A program made the translations under genes and the position numbers. DNA of 44,892 nt from Clostridia bacterium. GTDB taxonomy: Bacteria; Bacillota; DUOV01; Zhaonellaceae. The DNA lies in the NCBI GenBank assembly GCA_012838615.1, contig DUOV01000209.1:1-44892 (forward strand), read 5' to 3'. The notes beneath the pieces were generated by a model that saw only the letters and a list, made by a program, of their open reading frames with translations, was not told where the DNA came from and ran no database searches. This document shows, piece by piece, positions 1,067 to 19,305 of the stretch (positions are counted from its first letter, which is position 1; each line of letters starts with the position of its first letter).

Positions 1067-2152
1067 TTATTGAAAAGTATTAATGTATTTTTGCCCAGGT
1101 AATTGTTTTATTATCCCTTTTATTTCTAAAACTGTCAACTGACTTATTACCAATTCAGGCTTAAGACCTGTTTTTCTTATTATTTCTTCTAAAGTTATGG
1201 GCTCAGTCGAGAAAAATTGAACAATACTTCTCTGAACAGGGCACAACTCCATCTTTTCCTTAGGTTCTACCTTACTTGTTATTGAAAGACCATATTCCTC
1301 TAAAATATCATTAGCATTTTGAACCAACTTTGCTCCCTGCTGAATCAGGCTATTAGTTCCTTTACTATAAGGGCTGAGTATTGAACCAGGTACAGCAAAA
1401 ACATCCCGCCCTTGCTGCAAGGCCAATTCGGCAGTAATCAAAGACCCGCTTTTCTGAGCTGCTTCCACGACAATCACCCCGTCGGAAAGCCCACTAATTA
1501 TGCGATTCCTGCGGGGAAAATTTTTAGCCTCGGGAGGCATTTCAGGAGCGAATTCAGAAACAACCACTCCACTTAAACGTATTTTATTGTAAAGTTTTTT
1601 ATTTTCAGGCGGGTATACAATATCTATTCCACAGCCAAGAACGGCGATTGTTTCCCCCTGAGCTTTTATGGCGCCCCTATGTGCCCAACTGTCTATCCCT
1701 CTTGCCATACCGCTCACTATAGCAAAACCAGCCTTTGCTAAATCAAAAGCTATTTTTTCAGCAATTTGTTGTCCATGGATGGTAGCTTTGCGAGACCCTA
1801 CTATTGCTAAACTTTTACTTTTTAAACTAGCTATGTTTCCCCGGTAGTAAAGAAGCGGTGGACAAGAATAAATATTTTTCAGTTTATCAGGATATTCTTT
1901 ATCTTGTATGGTTACGATACTAATATTGTATTTACTTAACTTTTTAAATGACTCTTCTAGATTAAATTGTTTTTTCCAGGCTATTAATTGGTCAACAAGA
2001 CAAACTTTTTTCTTGAAAAAATCATATAAATCTGCAGGAGTTGCATTCCATACTTGTTTGGGCGTCTCAAAATGATTAAGTAAGCGGTTGTAGGTTTGGG
2101 GACCTAGTCCAGGAACCATATTTAAGGCATGCCAATATATTTTATCATCCAT
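1067..2152 (-). CDS. dprA: DNA processing protein DprA
   Basis: Protein of about 361 aa that in transformable bacteria loads RecA on incoming single-stranded DNA. An N-terminal helix-hairpin-like region (residues about 1-70) precedes the Rossmann-like DprA domain with GSRKAT near residue 119, SGMARGIDSWAH, and FPRRNRIISG. A C-terminal winged-helix-like region follows. I prefer the ATG at 2152 over the TTG at 2158 because GAGG lies 8 nt before the ATG but only 3 nt before the TTG. It reads into topA. DprA is widespread in non-competent Firmicutes, so its presence does not prove competence. Confidence 0.95.
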   Translation of the reverse strand: MDDKIYWHALNMVPGLGPQTYNRLLNHFETPKQVWNATPADLYDFFKKKVCLVDQLIAWKKQFNLEESFKKLSKYNISIVTIQDKEYPDKLKNIYSCPPLLYYRGNIASLKSKSLAIVGSRKATIHGQQIAEKIAFDLAKAGFAIVSGMARGIDSWAHRGAIKAQGETIAVLGCGIDIVYPPENKKLYNKIRLSGVVVSEFAPEMPPEAKNFPRRNRIISGLSDGVIVVEAAQKSGSLITAELALQQGRDVFAVPGSILSPYSKGTNSLIQQGAKLVQNANDILEEYGLSITSKVEPKEKMELCPVQRSIVQFFSTEPITLEEIIRKTGLKPELVISQLTVLEIKGIIKQLPGQKYINTFQ

Positions 2153-6454: not shown

Positions 6455-6585
6455 ACATCCATAAAAAAACGGATGCATAAAAGCATCCGCATGGCAAACA
6501 ACATAATGTTTTCCTATTAACCTTATGTGCCTGAGCAATAAGGTGAGAAGCGGATAGCTTCTACTTGTAACCTGACATCATAAAG
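6455..6585 (-). promoter_or_regulatory. L20 (infC-rpmI-rplT) leader with attenuator
   Basis: The untranslated leader of infC ends in an intrinsic terminator: stem CGGATGC/GCATCCG at 6470-6489 followed by seven T on the minus strand (6463-6469). Upstream are a GTAGAAGC/GCTTCT hairpin and two ACCTTAT/ATAAGGT segments able to pair. Position and composition fit the Firmicute L20 leader, where excess L20 favours termination. Assignment rests on motif recognition, not on a covariance search. Confidence 0.8.
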
Positions 6586-8691: not shown

Positions 8692-8930
8692 AAATAAAAA
8701 CAACCTATCTCCTGTAAGAGACGGTTGTCCCGCGGTTCCACTCTTCTTAGAAAAGACAAACTTTTCTCACTCCAAGCCCTAACGCAGCTAACGCCAAAAC
8801 ATACTCTTATTTCTGCTTTGGAACTCCAGGGTGGTCTTCACTTTGTTTCAACTTAAAGAATACTTTCAGCCTAGGTATTCTCTCTCTAATAAGTAAAAAC
8901 AAGTTACTCTCCCTATCCTCGTCATTTACT
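8692..8930 (-). promoter_or_regulatory. T-box leader of thrS
   Basis: On the minus strand the leader shows an AGAGAG stretch, a stem I hairpin GAATAC/GTATTC with a GGCTGAAA-type terminal loop, a downstream ACC triplet that could be the Thr specifier, and the T-box AGAGTGGAACCGCGGG (8728-8744). It ends in a terminator with stem CAACC...GGTTG (8701-8727) and a T-run. Uncharged tRNA-Thr would stabilise the antiterminator and let transcription reach thrS. The specifier choice is less certain than the T-box call. Confidence 0.92.
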
Positions 8931-12660: not shown

Positions 12661-12947
12661 ATGAAATATGAACATATAAAAAAGGTTTTCCCAGGTGGCA
12701 ATACTTCCCAAGGTTTTTACTCATTTTATAATTACATACTAGGTCCCAACGCCAAAAGACTTTTTATTCTTAAGGGTGGGCCAGGTGTTGGAAAATCCAC
12801 TTTCATTAGACAAGTGGGTGAAACAATGATTGCTAAAGGGTACGATATTGAATATCATATTTGTTCCTCTGATAGCAATTCTCTTGATGGAATCGTTATA
12901 CCCACCTTGCAAATTGGTATTATTGATGGTACAGCACCCCACGTAGT
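12661..12947 (+). CDS. 5' part of an interrupted two-P-loop ATPase gene
   Basis: Encodes residues 1-95 of a 366-aa protein whose remainder is at 18482-19305. Strong ribosome site GGAGG before the ATG. The piece has Walker A GGPGVGKST at 39-47 and then GYDIEYHICSSDS and LQIGIIDGTAPHV. It resembles the uncharacterised Firmicute ATPase family annotated PRK06851 (recognised from memory). As the DNA stands, the frame runs past the junction into foreign sequence and stops at 13071, antisense to the end of ddh. Joined to the 3' part through the 10-bp core it continues in frame with no stop. Function unknown. Confidence 0.88.
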
Positions 12948-12957
12948 GAGTTCGTTA
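12938..12957 (+). other. Left attachment site of the element
   Basis: Core CCCACGTAGT (12938-12947) lies in codons 93-96 of the ATPase gene, followed inside the element by the recombinase arm GAGTTCGTTA. The likely central dinucleotide is CA at 12940-12941. Confidence 0.85.
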
Positions 12958-12983
12958 AACAAATTAATACCTTGTAATATTTA

Positions 12984-13967
12984 CTATAACAGACGTGCAC
13001 GCAAATCTTCATCTGACAGATTAGATAAATACGCAGGAGGAACGTCAAAAATAGTTTTGGCGCCATACTGACCTTGTTGATAAAGCCGATATACCGCGCG
13101 CGCATATGCCACAAGAACACTCGCTGTAAACTCGGGGTTGCTTTCTAGTTTTAAAGAATATTCAATGATATGATTATTTTGTTTTGTACGACCACTTCGA
13201 ATTACGAATCCCCCATGAGGAATTTTATTATGGTTAGTTCGCAGTTCATCTTCTGTTACAAAAATTACTTCTGTGTCATAATCAGCAAAGTAGTTAGGCA
13301 TTTTTTTAATTTCTTGCTCTATTTCATTTAGATCTGCTCCTTCCTGAGCAACAACAAAACATTGTCTATAATGCTTTTCTCTGGTTGAAAGTTTAGGATT
13401 TTCACCTCTCCTTACTGACTCAATTGCGTCCTCTATTGGAATAGTATATTGAACACCAGCCTTCACCCCTTTTACCCTACGAATTGCATCTGAATGACCT
13501 TGGCTCACACCTTTTCCCCAAAAAGTATAAGTTTCCCCTTCTGGTAGAATTGCTTCGGTCATCATACGATTAAGAGAAAAAAGCCCCGGGTCCCATCCAA
13601 CTGAAATTATACTAGTCTTCCTGGCTTTTTTAGCTGCCTTATCAAGCGCGGAAAAATATTCTGGGATTCTGGCATGGGTATCAAAGCTGTCAACTGTATT
13701 AAACATTTGAGCCAAATAAGGGCCTTGCTCCGGCAAATCTGTCATGGACCCTCCACAAAGGATCATCGTGTCAATAATACCTATATATTTTTCTACACGG
13801 TTATAATGCTCGACTATAGCCGACGAATTTTCTAGATTAATGAGATTTGGATCTCTTCTTGTAAAAACCGCCACCAACTCCATGTCCGGTTGATTAAGAA
13901 GTGCCGCTTCAACGCCTTTACCTAAATTACCGTACCCTACAATTCCAACTTTAATCACAGAATCCAT
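12984..13967 (-). CDS. ddh: meso-Diaminopimelate D-dehydrogenase
   Basis: 327 aa, full length. NADPH-dependent enzyme making meso-diaminopimelate directly from tetrahydrodipicolinate, for cell wall and lysine. N-terminal Rossmann motif VGIVGYGNLGKGVE; substrate-site segments CGGSMTDLPEQGPYLAQ, SVGWDPGLFSLNRMM and GVSQGHSDAIRRVKGV are as in characterised Ddh proteins. An AAGGAGG site precedes the ATG. It is cargo of the intervening element; its stop lies only 36 bp inside the left core and no terminator separates it from the junction, so its transcript probably runs antisense into the 5' part of the split gene. Confidence 0.95.
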   Translation of the reverse strand: MDSVIKVGIVGYGNLGKGVEAALLNQPDMELVAVFTRRDPNLINLENSSAIVEHYNRVEKYIGIIDTMILCGGSMTDLPEQGPYLAQMFNTVDSFDTHARIPEYFSALDKAAKKARKTSIISVGWDPGLFSLNRMMTEAILPEGETYTFWGKGVSQGHSDAIRRVKGVKAGVQYTIPIEDAIESVRRGENPKLSTREKHYRQCFVVAQEGADLNEIEQEIKKMPNYFADYDTEVIFVTEDELRTNHNKIPHGGFVIRSGRTKQNNHIIEYSLKLESNPEFTASVLVAYARAVYRLYQQGQYGAKTIFDVPPAYLSNLSDEDLRARLL

Positions 13968-14069
13968 GTGTACCTCCTTACTAGGTTATCATACCAGTTT
14001 AATTTATTATTTCGCTCTAAAAATAATTTTAAGCGATTAATCGTCTATGTTTTAAAAATAAAAAATTAT

Positions 14070-14168
14070 TAGAAAAACTTGGCTTGCTACAAGTTCTTTG
14101 GAAGAAGGCAAAAGCCTTAATTGCTATTAATTATAATCAGAAAGCTTATACTTTCTGATTTTATAAAA
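14070..14168. repeat. Hairpin repeat, copy B
   Basis: Related to copy A at 10684-10765, with the stem AATCAGAAAG/CTTTCTGATT at about 14136-14160. This copy is inside the intervening element, between trpP and ddh, while copy A is outside. Confidence 0.55.
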
Positions 14169-14192
14169 AAACGGCCAGCATTAGCTAGCCGT
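14164..14192 (-). terminator. Terminator after trpP
   Basis: On the minus strand the stem ACGGCTAGC/GCTGGCCGT with a 4-nt loop is followed by seven T. It begins a few bases after the trpP stop. Confidence 0.88.
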
Positions 14193-14199
14193 ATAATAC

Positions 14200-14718
14200 T
14201 TATTTTGCTATTGTGGTTTCAATTGTCTTCTTACTAAACACAACAACAGGATACAAAATTAATACCACGATAGCATTTGCTAGTGTTGCAGGAAGTACAA
14301 CCGTAGCAAATAAAAACTCGAAAGAAGCTGGTAGGCCAACAATAATCAAAGTGCATAGTAAAAAGACCGACCCGCTAATCAATGTTCCAACAATACCAAC
14401 TAACAAAGAGATAATTTTGGAATTTACTTTACCGCTTAAATATTTAATTAGGAAATATACTGCTATGGTTGTAATTAACTTATCAACTACGTTAGGAATT
14501 TGGCCTCCTGGCATAGAAGTAGTCAAAGCACTTAATAATCCTGCTAGAAAGCCAGCTAAAGCTGCTGTTTTAGAATTTTTATACATCATTAAAATTATAA
14601 ACAGCATACTTAGTAATAGATCAGGTTTTATTCCCCCACCGTACCCAGGAATAACTAGATGCAAAAGTGTTCCAATAGCTAATAACAACGCAATTTGAAT
14701 AGAATCTCTTAAACTCAT
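14200..14718 (-). CDS. trpP: Tryptophan transporter TrpP
   Basis: 172 aa, almost entirely hydrophobic with about five membrane segments. The N-terminal IALLLAIGTLLHLVIPGYGGG, then KPDLLLSMLFI, LSALTTSMPGGQIPNVVDK and GTLISGSVFL, closely follow Bacillus TrpP (YhaG), the tryptophan permease. The identification is supported independently by the leader: 11 GAG triplets spanning the ribosome site, as expected for control by the tryptophan-sensing protein TRAP. It is cargo of the intervening element. A thiamine- or biotin-type ECF component was considered, but the motifs and leader fit TrpP better. Confidence 0.9.
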   Translation of the reverse strand: MSLRDSIQIALLLAIGTLLHLVIPGYGGGIKPDLLLSMLFIILMMYKNSKTAALAGFLAGLLSALTTSMPGGQIPNVVDKLITTIAVYFLIKYLSGKVNSKIISLLVGIVGTLISGSVFLLCTLIIVGLPASFEFLFATVVLPATLANAIVVLILYPVVVFSKKTIETTIAK

Positions 14719-14789
14719 CTCATCTCACCTCATTAAAATGTTTACAACGTAGGGTTCTCAGCTCAGCTCAGCTCCTTTCCTCCTTTCTC
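14706..14789 (-). promoter_or_regulatory. TRAP-type binding site: 11 GAG triplets over the trpP start
   Basis: Reading the minus strand there are 11 GAG triplets. The upstream group lies at 14787-14789, 14780-14782, 14772-14774, 14767-14769, 14762-14764 and 14757-14759. The downstream group lies at 14729-14731, 14724-14726, 14719-14721, 14714-14716 and 14706-14708. Most are spaced exactly 5 nt apart (2-nt spacers), the spacing TRAP uses. The second group covers the Shine-Dalgarno sequence and start codon of trpP. TRAP has 11 subunits, each binding one triplet, so tryptophan-loaded TRAP should block translation. The 25-nt gap between groups is unusual. Confidence 0.88.
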
Positions 14790-14892
14790 AGAGATTCTTA
14801 CCACTACTTAAAAATATTATATTCGCAATTTTTCTTGTTTACAACAATAAAATTTATAAAATAAAATTTTATTAAGCAACAAAAAACCAACC

Positions 14893-16602
14893 TTATTTAT
14901 CCTGCAATTTGGCTTTTTGGATTTTTGCCCAGGTGTCTTTTAAGCCTACAATACGGTTGAAGATTAAATTATCTTCATCAGAATCTTTATCAAGGCAAAA
15001 GTAACCTTGTCTTAAAAATTGGAAACGCTCACCTGGTTTGGCATTTTTTAGAATTGGTTCTACTAAACAATTCCTCAAAACAGTAAGTGAATTAGGTGCT
15101 AAATTATCTAGAAAGCTTTGTCCTTCTTCAACGTCTTCCGGATCCTCTTTAATAAAAAGATTATCGTACAAACGAACTTCGGCTTTTAAAGCATGAGACG
15201 CAGATACCCAGTGTGAAGTACCCTTAACCTTGCGCCCATCTGTTGACCATCCACCTTTAGTCTCTGGATCATAAGTGCAATGAATTTCCACTATTTCCCC
15301 AGTTTCCTCGTCTTTTATTACATCAACACATTTAATATAATAGGCGTGTTGCAAACGAACTTCTTTTCCAGGTGAAAGGCGATGAAAATTCTTGGGAGGA
15401 CTTTCTTGAAAATCCTCTCTTTCAATATATACTACTTTTGAAAAAGGTACTTTTCTGGAACCTAATTCAGGTTTTTCTGGGTTTATGGTTGCATCTAACC
15501 ACTCTACTTGTCCTTCAGGATAGTTATCTATAACTACTTTTAAGGGTTTTAATACAGCCATTACTCTAGGTGCTTTTTTATTCAGATCTTCACGAATACA
15601 ATGTTCAAGCAAAGCAATATCTACCATGCTATTACTTTTAGCTACCCCGATACGTTCGCAAAAGTCTCTAATGGATTCAGGAGTGTACCCTCTTCTTCTA
15701 AGTCCCGATATAGTTGGCATTCTAGGATCATCCCAACCAGCTACATGACCATTTTCGACTAATTCGCGGAGTTTACGCTTACTCATTACTGTGTAGCTTA
15801 AATTGAGCCGGGCAAACTCAATCTGAGTCGAATGACAATCAACTTGTAAGGTATCTAAAAACCAATCATATAGCGGCCTATGATCTTCAAATTCAAGAGT
15901 ACAGATTGAGTGAGTTATTCCCTCAAGAGCGTCAGATAACGGATGGGCAAAGTCATACATAGGGTAAATACACCAAGTGTCACCGGTTCTATGATGTATA
16001 CTCCTTTGGATACGGTAAATGATTGGATCACGCATATTAAGGTTTGGGGAAGCCATATCAATTCTTGCCCGAAGAGTTCGGGAACCGTCCGGAAACTCTC
16101 CGTTTTTCATTCTCTGAAACAAATCCAAATTTTCCTCTACCGAGCGATTTCGATAGGGACTTTCCTTGCCAGGTTCAGTCAATGTACCTCTATATTCCCT
16201 TACTTCCTCAGGGCTTAAGTCACAAACATAGGCCTTGCCTAATTCTATTAATTTAATAGCATACTGATAAAGTTCTTCAAAATAATCTGAAGCATAGTAT
16301 AATCTGTCTTCCCAATCGAAACCAAGCCACTTAACGTCTTCCATAATTGATTTAACATACTCTACATCTTCTTTGGTGGGATTTGTATCATCAAAACGTA
16401 GATTACATAAACCATTATAGGCTTTGGCAATACCAAAGTTTAAACAGATAGATTTAGCATGTCCAATATGTAAATAGCCATTGGGTTCAGGGGGAAAGCG
16501 AGTATGAACTCTATTACCGTATTTCCCGGTTTTTAAATCATCATTGATAATAGCTTCAATGAAATTTGACGGCGCTTTATCTACTTGACTTAAATTAGGC
16601 AA
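14893..16602 (-). CDS. glnS: Glutaminyl-tRNA synthetase
   Basis: 569 aa, close to the usual 550-570. Class I motifs: [15 protein letters not shown] near residue 38, and VMSKRKL (KMSKS equivalent). [35 protein letters not shown] and [10 protein letters not shown] are GlnS-specific; the C-terminal part is the GlnRS beta-barrel anticodon domain. I start it at the TTG at 16602: GAGGAGG lies 8 nt upstream and the protein then begins just before the conserved [10 protein letters not shown]. The frame is open further upstream, but that stretch does not look like GlnRS. Most Firmicutes make Gln-tRNA by the GatCAB route, so a GlnRS gene on a mobile element is notable. Confidence 0.96.
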
Positions 16603-16749
16603 CTTGTATACCTCCTCAATATTAACATCTCGAACATCATTCTTTAAATCATTATAAACTCTATATTTTTTTTGTAAAGTTTCACCTCCAAAAGACTGAA
16701 TAGGACAATTTAAGGCTTCATACTTATTCAATATGAAGGAGGTGAACTT
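16603..16749. promoter_or_regulatory. Divergent control region between glnS and the recombinase operon
   Basis: About 147 bp separate the divergent genes. It holds two oppositely oriented Shine-Dalgarno-like sequences forming an inverted repeat (TTCACCTCC at 16680-16688 and GGAGGTGAA at 16737-16745). The left one, on the glnS strand, has no ATG/GTG/TTG start at proper distance. Promoters must lie here but I cannot place them with confidence. Confidence 0.45.
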
Positions 16750-16860
16750 ATGGCAAAAAAGCTGACTAAGTACATTATAAATGAAAAGTACAAAGAAAAC
16801 GTACAACTAGAAGATATCATTAAAAAAATTGTTGAACAAATTATTTTTTCTTGTGAATAA
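16750..16860 (+). CDS. 36-aa protein preceding the recombinase
   Basis: Reads [20 protein letters not shown] then a helix-like [13 protein letters not shown] and the ending SCE. It has a strong GAAGGAGG site 7 nt before the ATG and ends 20 nt before the recombinase start, so the two are very likely co-transcribed. I recognise no family. Position and size suggest a small accessory or directionality protein, but that is only inference from context. Confidence 0.65.
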
Positions 16861-16880
16861 CTTACATACGAGGTGTGTTT

Positions 16881-18467
16881 ATGAAATCAGAAGCAGCTTT
16901 TAGTAGAGTAACACCTCAAGTAGCAATATATGTACGACTCAGCGATGAAGATAAAAATAAAACTGATAATCTAGGAAATAGCGAAAGTATAAAAAATCAG
17001 ATTGCCCTGGCAACTAAATACGCTAACGAAAAAAAGTGGGTAATCCATGATATTTACATTGATGATGATTGGTCAGGGTTAGACAGAGACAGACCTGAAT
17101 TTAACCGCCTGCTTAAAGATTGTGAAGCAAGAAAAATTGATATTGTACTCTGTAAGGACATGAGCCGATTTACGCGCGATAAAATAGTCACCGAAGAATA
17201 TTTAGAAACTAAATTTGTTGAATGGGGTATCCGTTTTATTGGTTTAAGCGACGGTGTTGATACTTCAGATAAAGCGAACAAGAAATCAAGAGAAATCAAC
17301 GCTCTCGTGAACCAATGGTACGCCGAGGATATTTCAATTAAAGTTAAAGATACACTTAAAATAAAACGTGAAACAGGAAATTTTATCGGCAGCTTTCCGC
17401 CATACGGCTATAAAAAATCAGCTCATAACAAAAATAAACTTGAGATTGATGAAGTTGCTGCCAAAACAGTTCGCATGATTTTCCAACTATATTTAGAGGG
17501 CTATGGGACAACTGCCATAGCAAAAATATTAAATGCAAAACAAATACCAAATCCTTGTACTTACAAAGAACTTACCATACAAAATTACAAGAACCCTTTT
17601 AAAAAAAAATCTACCAGCGTTTGGAATAAAACCTCCGTGAAGAGAATTTTACGAAATGAAGTATATTTAGGGATACTTCAGCAACACAAGTCTGAAAAAA
17701 TTCATTTCAAAAGTAAAAAAAGAAAACAAGTACCTAAAAAATATTGGACAGTAGTGAAAAATACTCATCCACCCATTATTGATAAAGCTACCTTTTTTAC
17801 TGTGCAGAAATTAATGGATACAAAAATTCGTAGTTCAGGTTATGGAAAAGCCCATATCTTTGCCGGTAAAGTTTTCTGTAAAGATTGCAAAAGTCCACTT
17901 ACAAAGTCTTCTTCCGGCAAATATTCATATTTATCATGTGCACTTTATAATTCTTCCCACTTAAAATGTTCTAGACATAGTATTAGATTTGATAGATTAA
18001 TTCAAATAGTAGAAGACCGTCTTAGGCGTCATTTACTAATACTAACACATAAAACCGATGACTTAGTACAAGAGGTATTGGAAAAGGGTAAATTAAAAAA
18101 GGAAGAACAAAACTACCAAGTTTTAAAGAAAAACATAATAAAAAGAATTAACGACTTGAATAATGGACTTAAATACCTTTACATTGACAAAGCTAATAAA
18201 ACAATTGAAGAAGTTGTGTGGCAAGATATTTTTGAACAATTTACAAATGAGAAAAAAATTTTAATTCAAGAACTTAAACGTTTAAATACCGAGGAAAAGG
18301 ATACCAGTCAAATTAATATTAAAGTGTGTAAAAAAGCAGTTAATGATATACTCCAAGTTTCCCCTTTAAATCGTACCTTGATTAATAATTTAATTGATTT
18401 TATCGAAGTTGGTGAAGTTGAAAATGGTAAGCAGGAGATAATTATCAGTTATACTTTTTGTAATTAA
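16881..18467 (+). CDS. Large serine recombinase of the intervening element
   Basis: 528 aa. The resolvase domain (about 14-160) begins AIYVRLSDED with catalytic Ser21 and contains CKDMSRFTRD, the conserved Arg-containing helix. The Recombinase domain spans about 165-300 (GSFPPYGYKK, LRNEVYLG). A zinc ribbon has Cys333, Cys336, Cys353 and Cys363, followed by a Lys/Glu-rich coiled coil (about 395-480). It resembles the TndX/TnpX type of clostridial enzymes. I chose the ATG at 16881, 7 nt after GAGG. It should carry out site-specific exchange between the two 10-bp cores; its gene ends right beside the right attachment site. Confidence 0.95.
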   Translation: MKSEAAFSRVTPQVAIYVRLSDEDKNKTDNLGNSESIKNQIALATKYANEKKWVIHDIYIDDDWSGLDRDRPEFNRLLKDCEARKIDIVLCKDMSRFTRDKIVTEEYLETKFVEWGIRFIGLSDGVDTSDKANKKSREINALVNQWYAEDISIKVKDTLKIKRETGNFIGSFPPYGYKKSAHNKNKLEIDEVAAKTVRMIFQLYLEGYGTTAIAKILNAKQIPNPCTYKELTIQNYKNPFKKKSTSVWNKTSVKRILRNEVYLGILQQHKSEKIHFKSKKRKQVPKKYWTVVKNTHPPIIDKATFFTVQKLMDTKIRSSGYGKAHIFAGKVFCKDCKSPLTKSSSGKYSYLSCALYNSSHLKCSRHSIRFDRLIQIVEDRLRRHLLILTHKTDDLVQEVLEKGKLKKEEQNYQVLKKNIIKRINDLNNGLKYLYIDKANKTIEEVVWQDIFEQFTNEKKILIQELKRLNTEEKDTSQINIKVCKKAVNDILQVSPLNRTLINNLIDFIEVGEVENGKQEIIISYTFCN

Positions 18468-18491
18468 TAAGGAACTCGTTACCCACGTAGT
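18468..18491 (+). other. Right attachment site of the element
   Basis: Inside arm TAAGGAACTC (18468-18477), 4-nt spacer, then core CCCACGTAGT (18482-18491) joined to the 3' part of the ATPase gene. The arm starts one base after the recombinase stop codon. Confidence 0.85.
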
Positions 18492-19305
18492 TGACCCTAA
18501 AATCCCCGGGGCAGTAGACGAGATTGTTAATTTAGGAGCTTTTTGGAATGAAGACAAAATTGTTGAAAAAAAACAAGATATTATCCGAATTTCAAGAGAA
18601 GTAAGTAGATGCTTTCGTAGGGCATACGGATATTTAGCACAAGCAAAATTATTAAATGAAGAAATTGAAAGCTATTATTTAGATAGTTTTGCCCTTGACT
18701 TCGAACAACTCAATAAACAAGCAATTCAACTTATTAACAAAATATTCAGTAAAGTGGCCCAAATTAAGCCCATGGCTTATGAAAGGCATTTGTTTGGTTC
18801 AGCAATAACACCAAATGGATTTGTTAATTATCTAGATACAATATTCGGCAATTTAGAAAAAAGGTATATTATTACAGGAAATGAGGGTACAGGCAAATCT
18901 ACCCTTCTGGAAAAAGTTTTCCGAACTGCAACAAATCTTGGTTATGATGTAGAAGTATACCATTGTGCTTTAATACCTAATAAAATCGAACATCTTCTAA
19001 TTCCAGAGCTTAAGGTTGGAGTGATTACAAGTATAAACGCACATTACTATGAAAAATCTAAAGATGACGTAGTAATCGATACCTCTGAGTATCTAGATTT
19101 CAGGGCTTTAGAAAGATTTAAAGACGATATGAAAGAAGCCAGTAATAGATATACTTCTGCCTTAGAACGCGGGATTTCTTATATTGCACGAGCTAAATCT
19201 GCCCATGATGAATTGGAAAGCTATTATGCACCAAATATGGACTTTAACCAAATAAAATTATATTCCAAGCAGATTATGGAACGTATCCTCAGTTACGTTA
19301 ATTGA
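18482..19305 (+). CDS. 3' part of the interrupted two-P-loop ATPase gene
   Basis: Encodes residues 96-366 of the split protein. The frame entering through the core reads VVDPKIPGAVDEIVNLGAFW and stays open to the stop at 19303-19305. A helical stretch is followed by a second P-loop, GNEGTGKST, at about 225-233. The segment from 191 to about 285 repeats the N-terminal half: GYDVEVYHCALIP and IPELKVGVITSINAHYY mirror GYDIEYHICSSDS and IPTLQIGIIDGTAPHVV. It has no proper start of its own; the GTG at 18754 lacks a ribosome site, so it is probably silent unless the element is removed. Confidence 0.88.

Follow-up and report, generated by a model that had tools for sequence, protein, structure and literature searches.

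A putative split TRAP-binding site of eleven GAG triplets over the start of trpP, a gene carried by an inserted element in a Clostridia genome

Eleven GAG triplets, arranged in two blocks around the start of the tryptophan transporter gene trpP, very probably constitute a single split TRAP-binding site through which tryptophan-loaded TRAP, encoded by the host mtrB gene, would repress translation of trpP. The gene lies on an inserted element within the window, i.e., the whole stretch of 44,892 nucleotides that was analysed. As judged from sequence comparison, this would represent a known type of control (TRAP placed over the trpP start) in an uncommon layout of two blocks that is also encountered in many related bacteria, the two-block form being apparently new; a literature search of partial coverage yielded no description of split TRAP sites.

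TRAP is an 11-mer ring, and its sites are usually described as an uninterrupted series of triplets that fits the ring; a binding site typically comprises about 7–11 (G/U)AG triplets separated by 2–3 nt, corresponding to start-to-start distances of 5–6 nt. The minus strand of the window, read from 14789 to 14706, is GAGAAAGGAGGAAAGGAGCTGAGCTGAGCTGAG-AACCCTACGTTGTAAACATTTTAAT-GAGGTGAGATGAGATGAGTTTAAGAG and contains GAG exactly eleven times and UAG not once. The components are the following:

14757 to 14789, minus strand: putative TRAP site block 1 in the trpP leader, six GAG with steps of 7, 8, 5, 5 and 5 nt (sequence and triplet count)
14732 to 14756, minus strand: triplet-free linker of 25 nt, 72% A+U (sequence; diverges in relatives)
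14706 to 14731, minus strand: putative TRAP site block 2, five GAG with steps of 5, 5, 5 and 8 nt (near-invariant in five leaders)
14200 to 14718, minus strand: trpP, tryptophan transporter of 172 aa (PF17099, E=1.6e-46)

Six of the ten start-to-start steps are of 5 nt, three are of 7–8 nt and one, across the linker, is of 28 nt, while block 2 covers the Shine–Dalgarno sequence, the ATG (14718–14716) and codons 2–4 of trpP. An earlier note on this DNA had described eleven GAG in clusters of six and five, mostly 5 nt apart, with a 25-nt gap between them and with the second cluster over the ribosome site and the start codon, and the count on the minus strand bears out each of these particulars, block 2 spanning 14731–14706. 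Two properties of the array speak against the split-site reading, namely that block 2 partly overlaps what any Shine–Dalgarno sequence followed by a conserved MSLR start would give, and that three steps depart from the optimal spacing, namely those of 7 and 8 nt with which block 1 begins and that of 8 nt with which block 2 ends.

The array was evaluated by a chain score that rewards KAG triplets spaced by 5–6 nt and allows one gap. The trpP region scores 16.2, whereas its 5000 dinucleotide shuffles average 4.0 and none of them exceeds 12.1; the second-best place in the window scores 7.1. Only five places in the host genome hold four KAG in perfect 5-nt register, two of them being the two trpP blocks and a third the start of trpB; since this short motif is not over-represented genome-wide (5 matches versus 6 for the reversed control), only the location and the clustering of the matches carry weight.

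Does the host encode the cognate regulator? Its genome (222 contigs, 95% complete) contains one mtrB (E=4.5e-40, 78 aa), whose absence would have counted against the TRAP reading; it was found on another contig (C105), flanked by coaD and pfkA. The same neighbours occur in both same-family genomes, indicating that mtrB is a chromosomal gene of the lineage. The host MtrB aligns without gaps to crystallised TRAPs including 1c9s, and its contact residues were placed using the B. subtilis TRAP numbering. The residues of B. subtilis TRAP contacting each triplet, given in PMC4027176 as Glu36, Lys37, Lys56 and Arg58, all have their match in host MtrB. The ring of the host TRAP may consist of 11 or 12 subunits.

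The strongest evidence that TRAP, and not ribosomes alone, would read the array is its co-occurrence with mtrB across the phylum. Of 399 genomes sampled from the phylum, 111 yielded TrpP and 200 yielded mtrB; the 76 trpP leaders that were read belong to the stronger TrpP matches and were all given the same automatic chain score, an array being defined by a score of at least 8. An array is present in 37 of the 43 leaders from mtrB-containing genomes versus 1 of the 33 from genomes lacking mtrB (Fisher p=6e-14, the sequences being related) and, upon collapsing to families, in 18/21 versus 1/14 (Fisher p=5e-6). The lone mtrB-less leader having an array belongs to a genome in 450 contigs (G083) whose family mate G043 has mtrB, so that a missing contig is the likely cause of the exception. 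Several of the trpP genes from mtrB-less genomes (e.g., L053, L055, L057, L064, L071) were seen by eye, unscored, to be preceded by a T-box-like GGGTGGCACCGCG and a terminator, which suggests that TRAP and T-box control may replace each other at trpP.

The two-block layout was called by a script as two blocks of at least 3 triplets separated by a gap of at least 12 nt, and 16 of the 43 trpP leaders from mtrB-containing genomes, in nine families, are listed as split. One of these (L013, from G382) was discounted, its gap containing a promoter-like TATGATAAAAT by virtue of which block 1 is probably not transcribed there; the accepted cases are therefore 15 of 43 in eight families, G083 being a further one, and the gaps in split trpP leaders range from 16 to 43 nt. 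Of the earlier suggestion that the gap represents a variant on the usual contiguous array, what stands is that the interruption is real; it is not special to this gene, recurring as it does in trpP leaders of several families.

In five leaders (that of the window, both copies of the same-family genome G002, G043 and G083) the start-codon block GAGGTGAGMTGAGATGAGTTT / ATGAGGTGAGMTGAGATGAGTTT is almost invariant, whereas the linker aligns poorly. Although block 2 is in part coding sequence (MSLR), the first G002 copy has lost the final triplet through a change after which the codon still specifies arginine, the remaining triplets being kept. The recurrence of the split layout with a divergent linker suggests that the ring can bridge a loop, a premise testable by changing linker length; we know of no experiment showing TRAP bridging a linker of 25 nt. 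The linkers of split sites average 80% A+U versus 59% in coding sequence, a comparison weakened by the fact that the upstream flanks are also A+U-rich, and some of them hold runs of 6–8 T; the trpP linker in the window has 72% A+U and no T run, its own upstream flank having 77%.

Further arrays were observed in relatives. G002 has them at its trp operons and at both trpP genes, and a further one where the LarA-like gene begins that immediately precedes the second trpP copy (L114, G002:C1:1621383-1621400). In another same-family genome (L100/L106, G001:C3:227280-227359) a T run and a hairpin resembling a terminator come after a split (G/U)AG array; the next gene resembles the alpha subunit of indolepyruvate:ferredoxin oxidoreductase, which would be an unusual target of TRAP attenuation. 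Finally, the trpP leaders L083, L084 and L086 of family f38 have a T-rich stretch (up to T8) after the upstream triplets, which suggests TRAP-dependent termination besides start-codon masking in these leaders.

Within the element, the trpP leader of the window is preceded by a candidate promoter:

14816 to 14844, minus strand: promoter-like TTGTAA-17-TATAAT for trpP (10/12 consensus matches)

The predicted transcription start lies at about 14808, just upstream of block 1, the promoter being a consensus match of a weak kind, in that shuffles yield 1.1 such sites on average. The leader is no more structured than its shuffles (z=-0.38), with some local pairing predicted; a terminator was sought in it and none was found, and a stem–loop in the linker, also considered, received no support from folding. 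The Rfam matches of the window include no TRAP-site family; among its other leaders, a T-box leader upstream of the threonyl-tRNA synthetase gene (8714-8928, minus strand) and an L20 leader upstream of infC (6455-6572, minus strand) are ordinary.

In B. subtilis, TRAP represses trpP translation by keeping ribosomes from binding (Yakhnin et al. 2004 and Sarsero et al. 2000, as cited in PMC3971595), and about 7 or more triplets are stated to be necessary for stable binding of B. subtilis TRAP, around which the RNA is wrapped 5′ to 3′ (PMC4027176). Accordingly, blocks of six or five triplets should bind weakly if taken alone, whereas six and five together equal the number of sites of an 11-mer. 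When tryptophan is plentiful, loaded TRAP produced from the chromosomal mtrB would bind the trpP leader, a single ring nucleating on the six upstream triplets as the RNA leaves the polymerase, looping out the A+U-rich 25-nt linker and closing on block 2, whose five triplets cover both the ribosome-binding site and the start codon. Ribosomes could then not initiate, and the importer would not be made; when tryptophan is scarce, TRAP would release the leader and TrpP would be translated. That one ring holds both blocks, in this order of binding, and that the outcome is a tryptophan-dependent repression is what we infer from the arrangement.

Other readings of the same triplets have to be weighed. 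That they are repeated Shine–Dalgarno-like purine motifs raising translation with no link to TRAP is very improbable: GAGG/GAGGTG does resemble a ribosome site and block 2 sits where one is expected, but block 1 is too far upstream, the 5-nt register is that of TRAP sites, and the trpP leaders of mtrB-less genomes have an ordinary ribosome site and an array in only 1 of 33 cases. Even less credit, close to none, can be given to coincidence or to a low-complexity GAG repeat generated by microsatellite-like slippage; the GAGCT and GAGAT/GT units are indeed short tandem repeats, but no shuffle out of 5000 attains the score and the same design recurs in other families with different units and spacers.

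The remaining alternatives concern the way in which TRAP itself would operate. Each block could be occupied by a separate ring, giving two rings per leader, with block 2 alone blocking the ribosome. This we consider unlikely; the triplets of some relatives add up to more than 11 (8+7 in G304, 7+6 in G080), too many for one 11-mer to hold at once, but the blocks of the window, six and five, are below the approximately 7 triplets given for stable binding of B. subtilis TRAP in PMC4027176, and they sum to exactly 11. It is likewise unlikely that control is dual, TRAP on block 1 also stopping the RNA polymerase within the A+U-rich linker and block 2 serving to repress the transcripts that escape. 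The average of 80% A+U in split-site linkers and the runs of 6–8 T in some of them would fit such a scheme; against it, block 1 comprises only six triplets here, the linker (72% A+U) has no T run and is less A+U-rich than its upstream flank (77%), the leader yielded no terminator, and Glu60, reported in PMC7430163 as needed for TRAP-mediated termination, corresponds to Arg in host MtrB. Somewhat more doubtful still is a dual-mode switch in which TRAP on the upstream block halts the polymerase in the linker and the same ring then masks the start codon, operating here in an apparent auxotroph whose only TrpP found is on an element; if true, this would mean a two-step control of tryptophan uptake.

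As to the genetic setting of the single split site favoured here, trpP is part of an insertion that interrupts a PRK06851-family ATPase gene at the motif DGTAPHVVDP:

12661 to 12947, plus strand: N-terminal part of the interrupted PRK06851-family ATPase gene, the host target (NF005320 profile positions 4–97)
12938 to 12947, plus strand: left 10-bp direct repeat CCCACGTAGT, element boundary (sequence)
12938 to 18481, no strand assigned: inserted element of 5544 bp carrying ddh, trpP, glnS and a large serine recombinase (repeats and gene content)
12984 to 13967, minus strand: ddh, diaminopimelate dehydrogenase, cargo (TIGR01921, E=2e-139)
14893 to 16806, minus strand: glnS, glutaminyl-tRNA synthetase, cargo (TIGR00440, E=5.4e-239); translation probably begins downstream of the listed TTG
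16875 to 18467, plus strand: large serine recombinase of the element, 530 aa (PF00239, PF07508, PF13408)
18482 to 18491, plus strand: right 10-bp direct repeat CCCACGTAGT, element boundary (sequence)
18482 to 19305, plus strand: C-terminal part of the interrupted ATPase gene (NF005320 profile positions 93–361)

Joining the flanks at CCCACGTAGT restores an ATPase frame of 366 aa, which matches the intact protein of G002 over the full length at 59% identity, without a gap at the junction. The repeats, the recombinase and the restored frame indicate that the element is real, and since it lacks mtrB, its trpP is predicted to be under a chromosomal regulator. Excision would restore the ATPase gene, by analogy with fdxN- or skin-type elements. 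Pattern-based scans of the genome and viral contigs, whose reach is limited to close relatives, recovered no relatives of the recombinase.

The trpP tree pairs the element copy with a copy of the same family (L007; support 84/90, moderate) that has the same two-block leader and adjoins a methyltransferase gene and speE. A distant foreign origin was not adopted in view of this pairing; instead, the grouping and the shared leader indicate that trpP is probably a lineage gene that entered the element along with its leader. The search of viral contigs for TrpP gave one relative (39%), without the array. The earlier proposal that a mobile cargo gene is under the control of a host regulator thus holds as far as the element and its lack of mtrB are concerned, but it does not extend to recruitment of a foreign gene, trpP having a native appearance.

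What would TRAP regulate in this host? Neither trpE nor trpC was found when sought in the 95% complete genome, trpC being present in both same-family relatives. With the reservation that 5% of the genome is missing, the host seems to be a tryptophan auxotroph. The only TrpP found in the genome is the copy on the element. A search for TRAP targets by pattern identified only one further perfect-register array at a tryptophan-metabolism gene of the host, namely at a lone trpB (L099, G000:C36, approximately 1500-1545, minus strand), whose ribosome site and start codon are covered by seven to eight (G/U)AG; this gene is likely a second TRAP target. TRAP would govern uptake and, perhaps, indole salvage, having apparently been kept after the seeming loss of de novo synthesis with two recognisable targets left, trpP on the element and the lone trpB.

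With fdxN (XisF) and skin-type elements the insertion shares a large serine recombinase at one edge, a short direct repeat and a conserved target gene that is cleanly interrupted and regains its frame when the flanks are joined; it differs in the target gene and in its cargo, which is metabolic (ddh, trpP, glnS), and the recombinase scores 101.8 for XisF, far below the family cut-off of 375. The split trpP arrays of related Bacillota (e.g., G002, G043, G083, G116, G304) have the same two blocks, A+U-rich triplet-free linker and second block near or over the start, with differences in linker length (16–43 nt), in triplets per block (3–8 by automatic count) and in genomic setting, none of them being known to lie on an element. 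The B. subtilis trpP (yhaG) leader is alike in the family of the regulated gene, the type of triplet, the position of the array over ribosome site and start codon and the host-encoded regulator family. Its site is reportedly a more or less continuous triplet run, whereas here eleven GAG and no UAG form two blocks 25 nt apart on a recombinase-bearing element. Finally, the B. subtilis trpEDCFBA leader has eleven (G/U)AG matching the 11 subunits, according to PMC4027176 and PMC3913778; the number of triplets is the same, but there all of them are separated by 2–3 nt and the site acts on a terminator, while here the site extends over the start codon and the leader shows no terminator.
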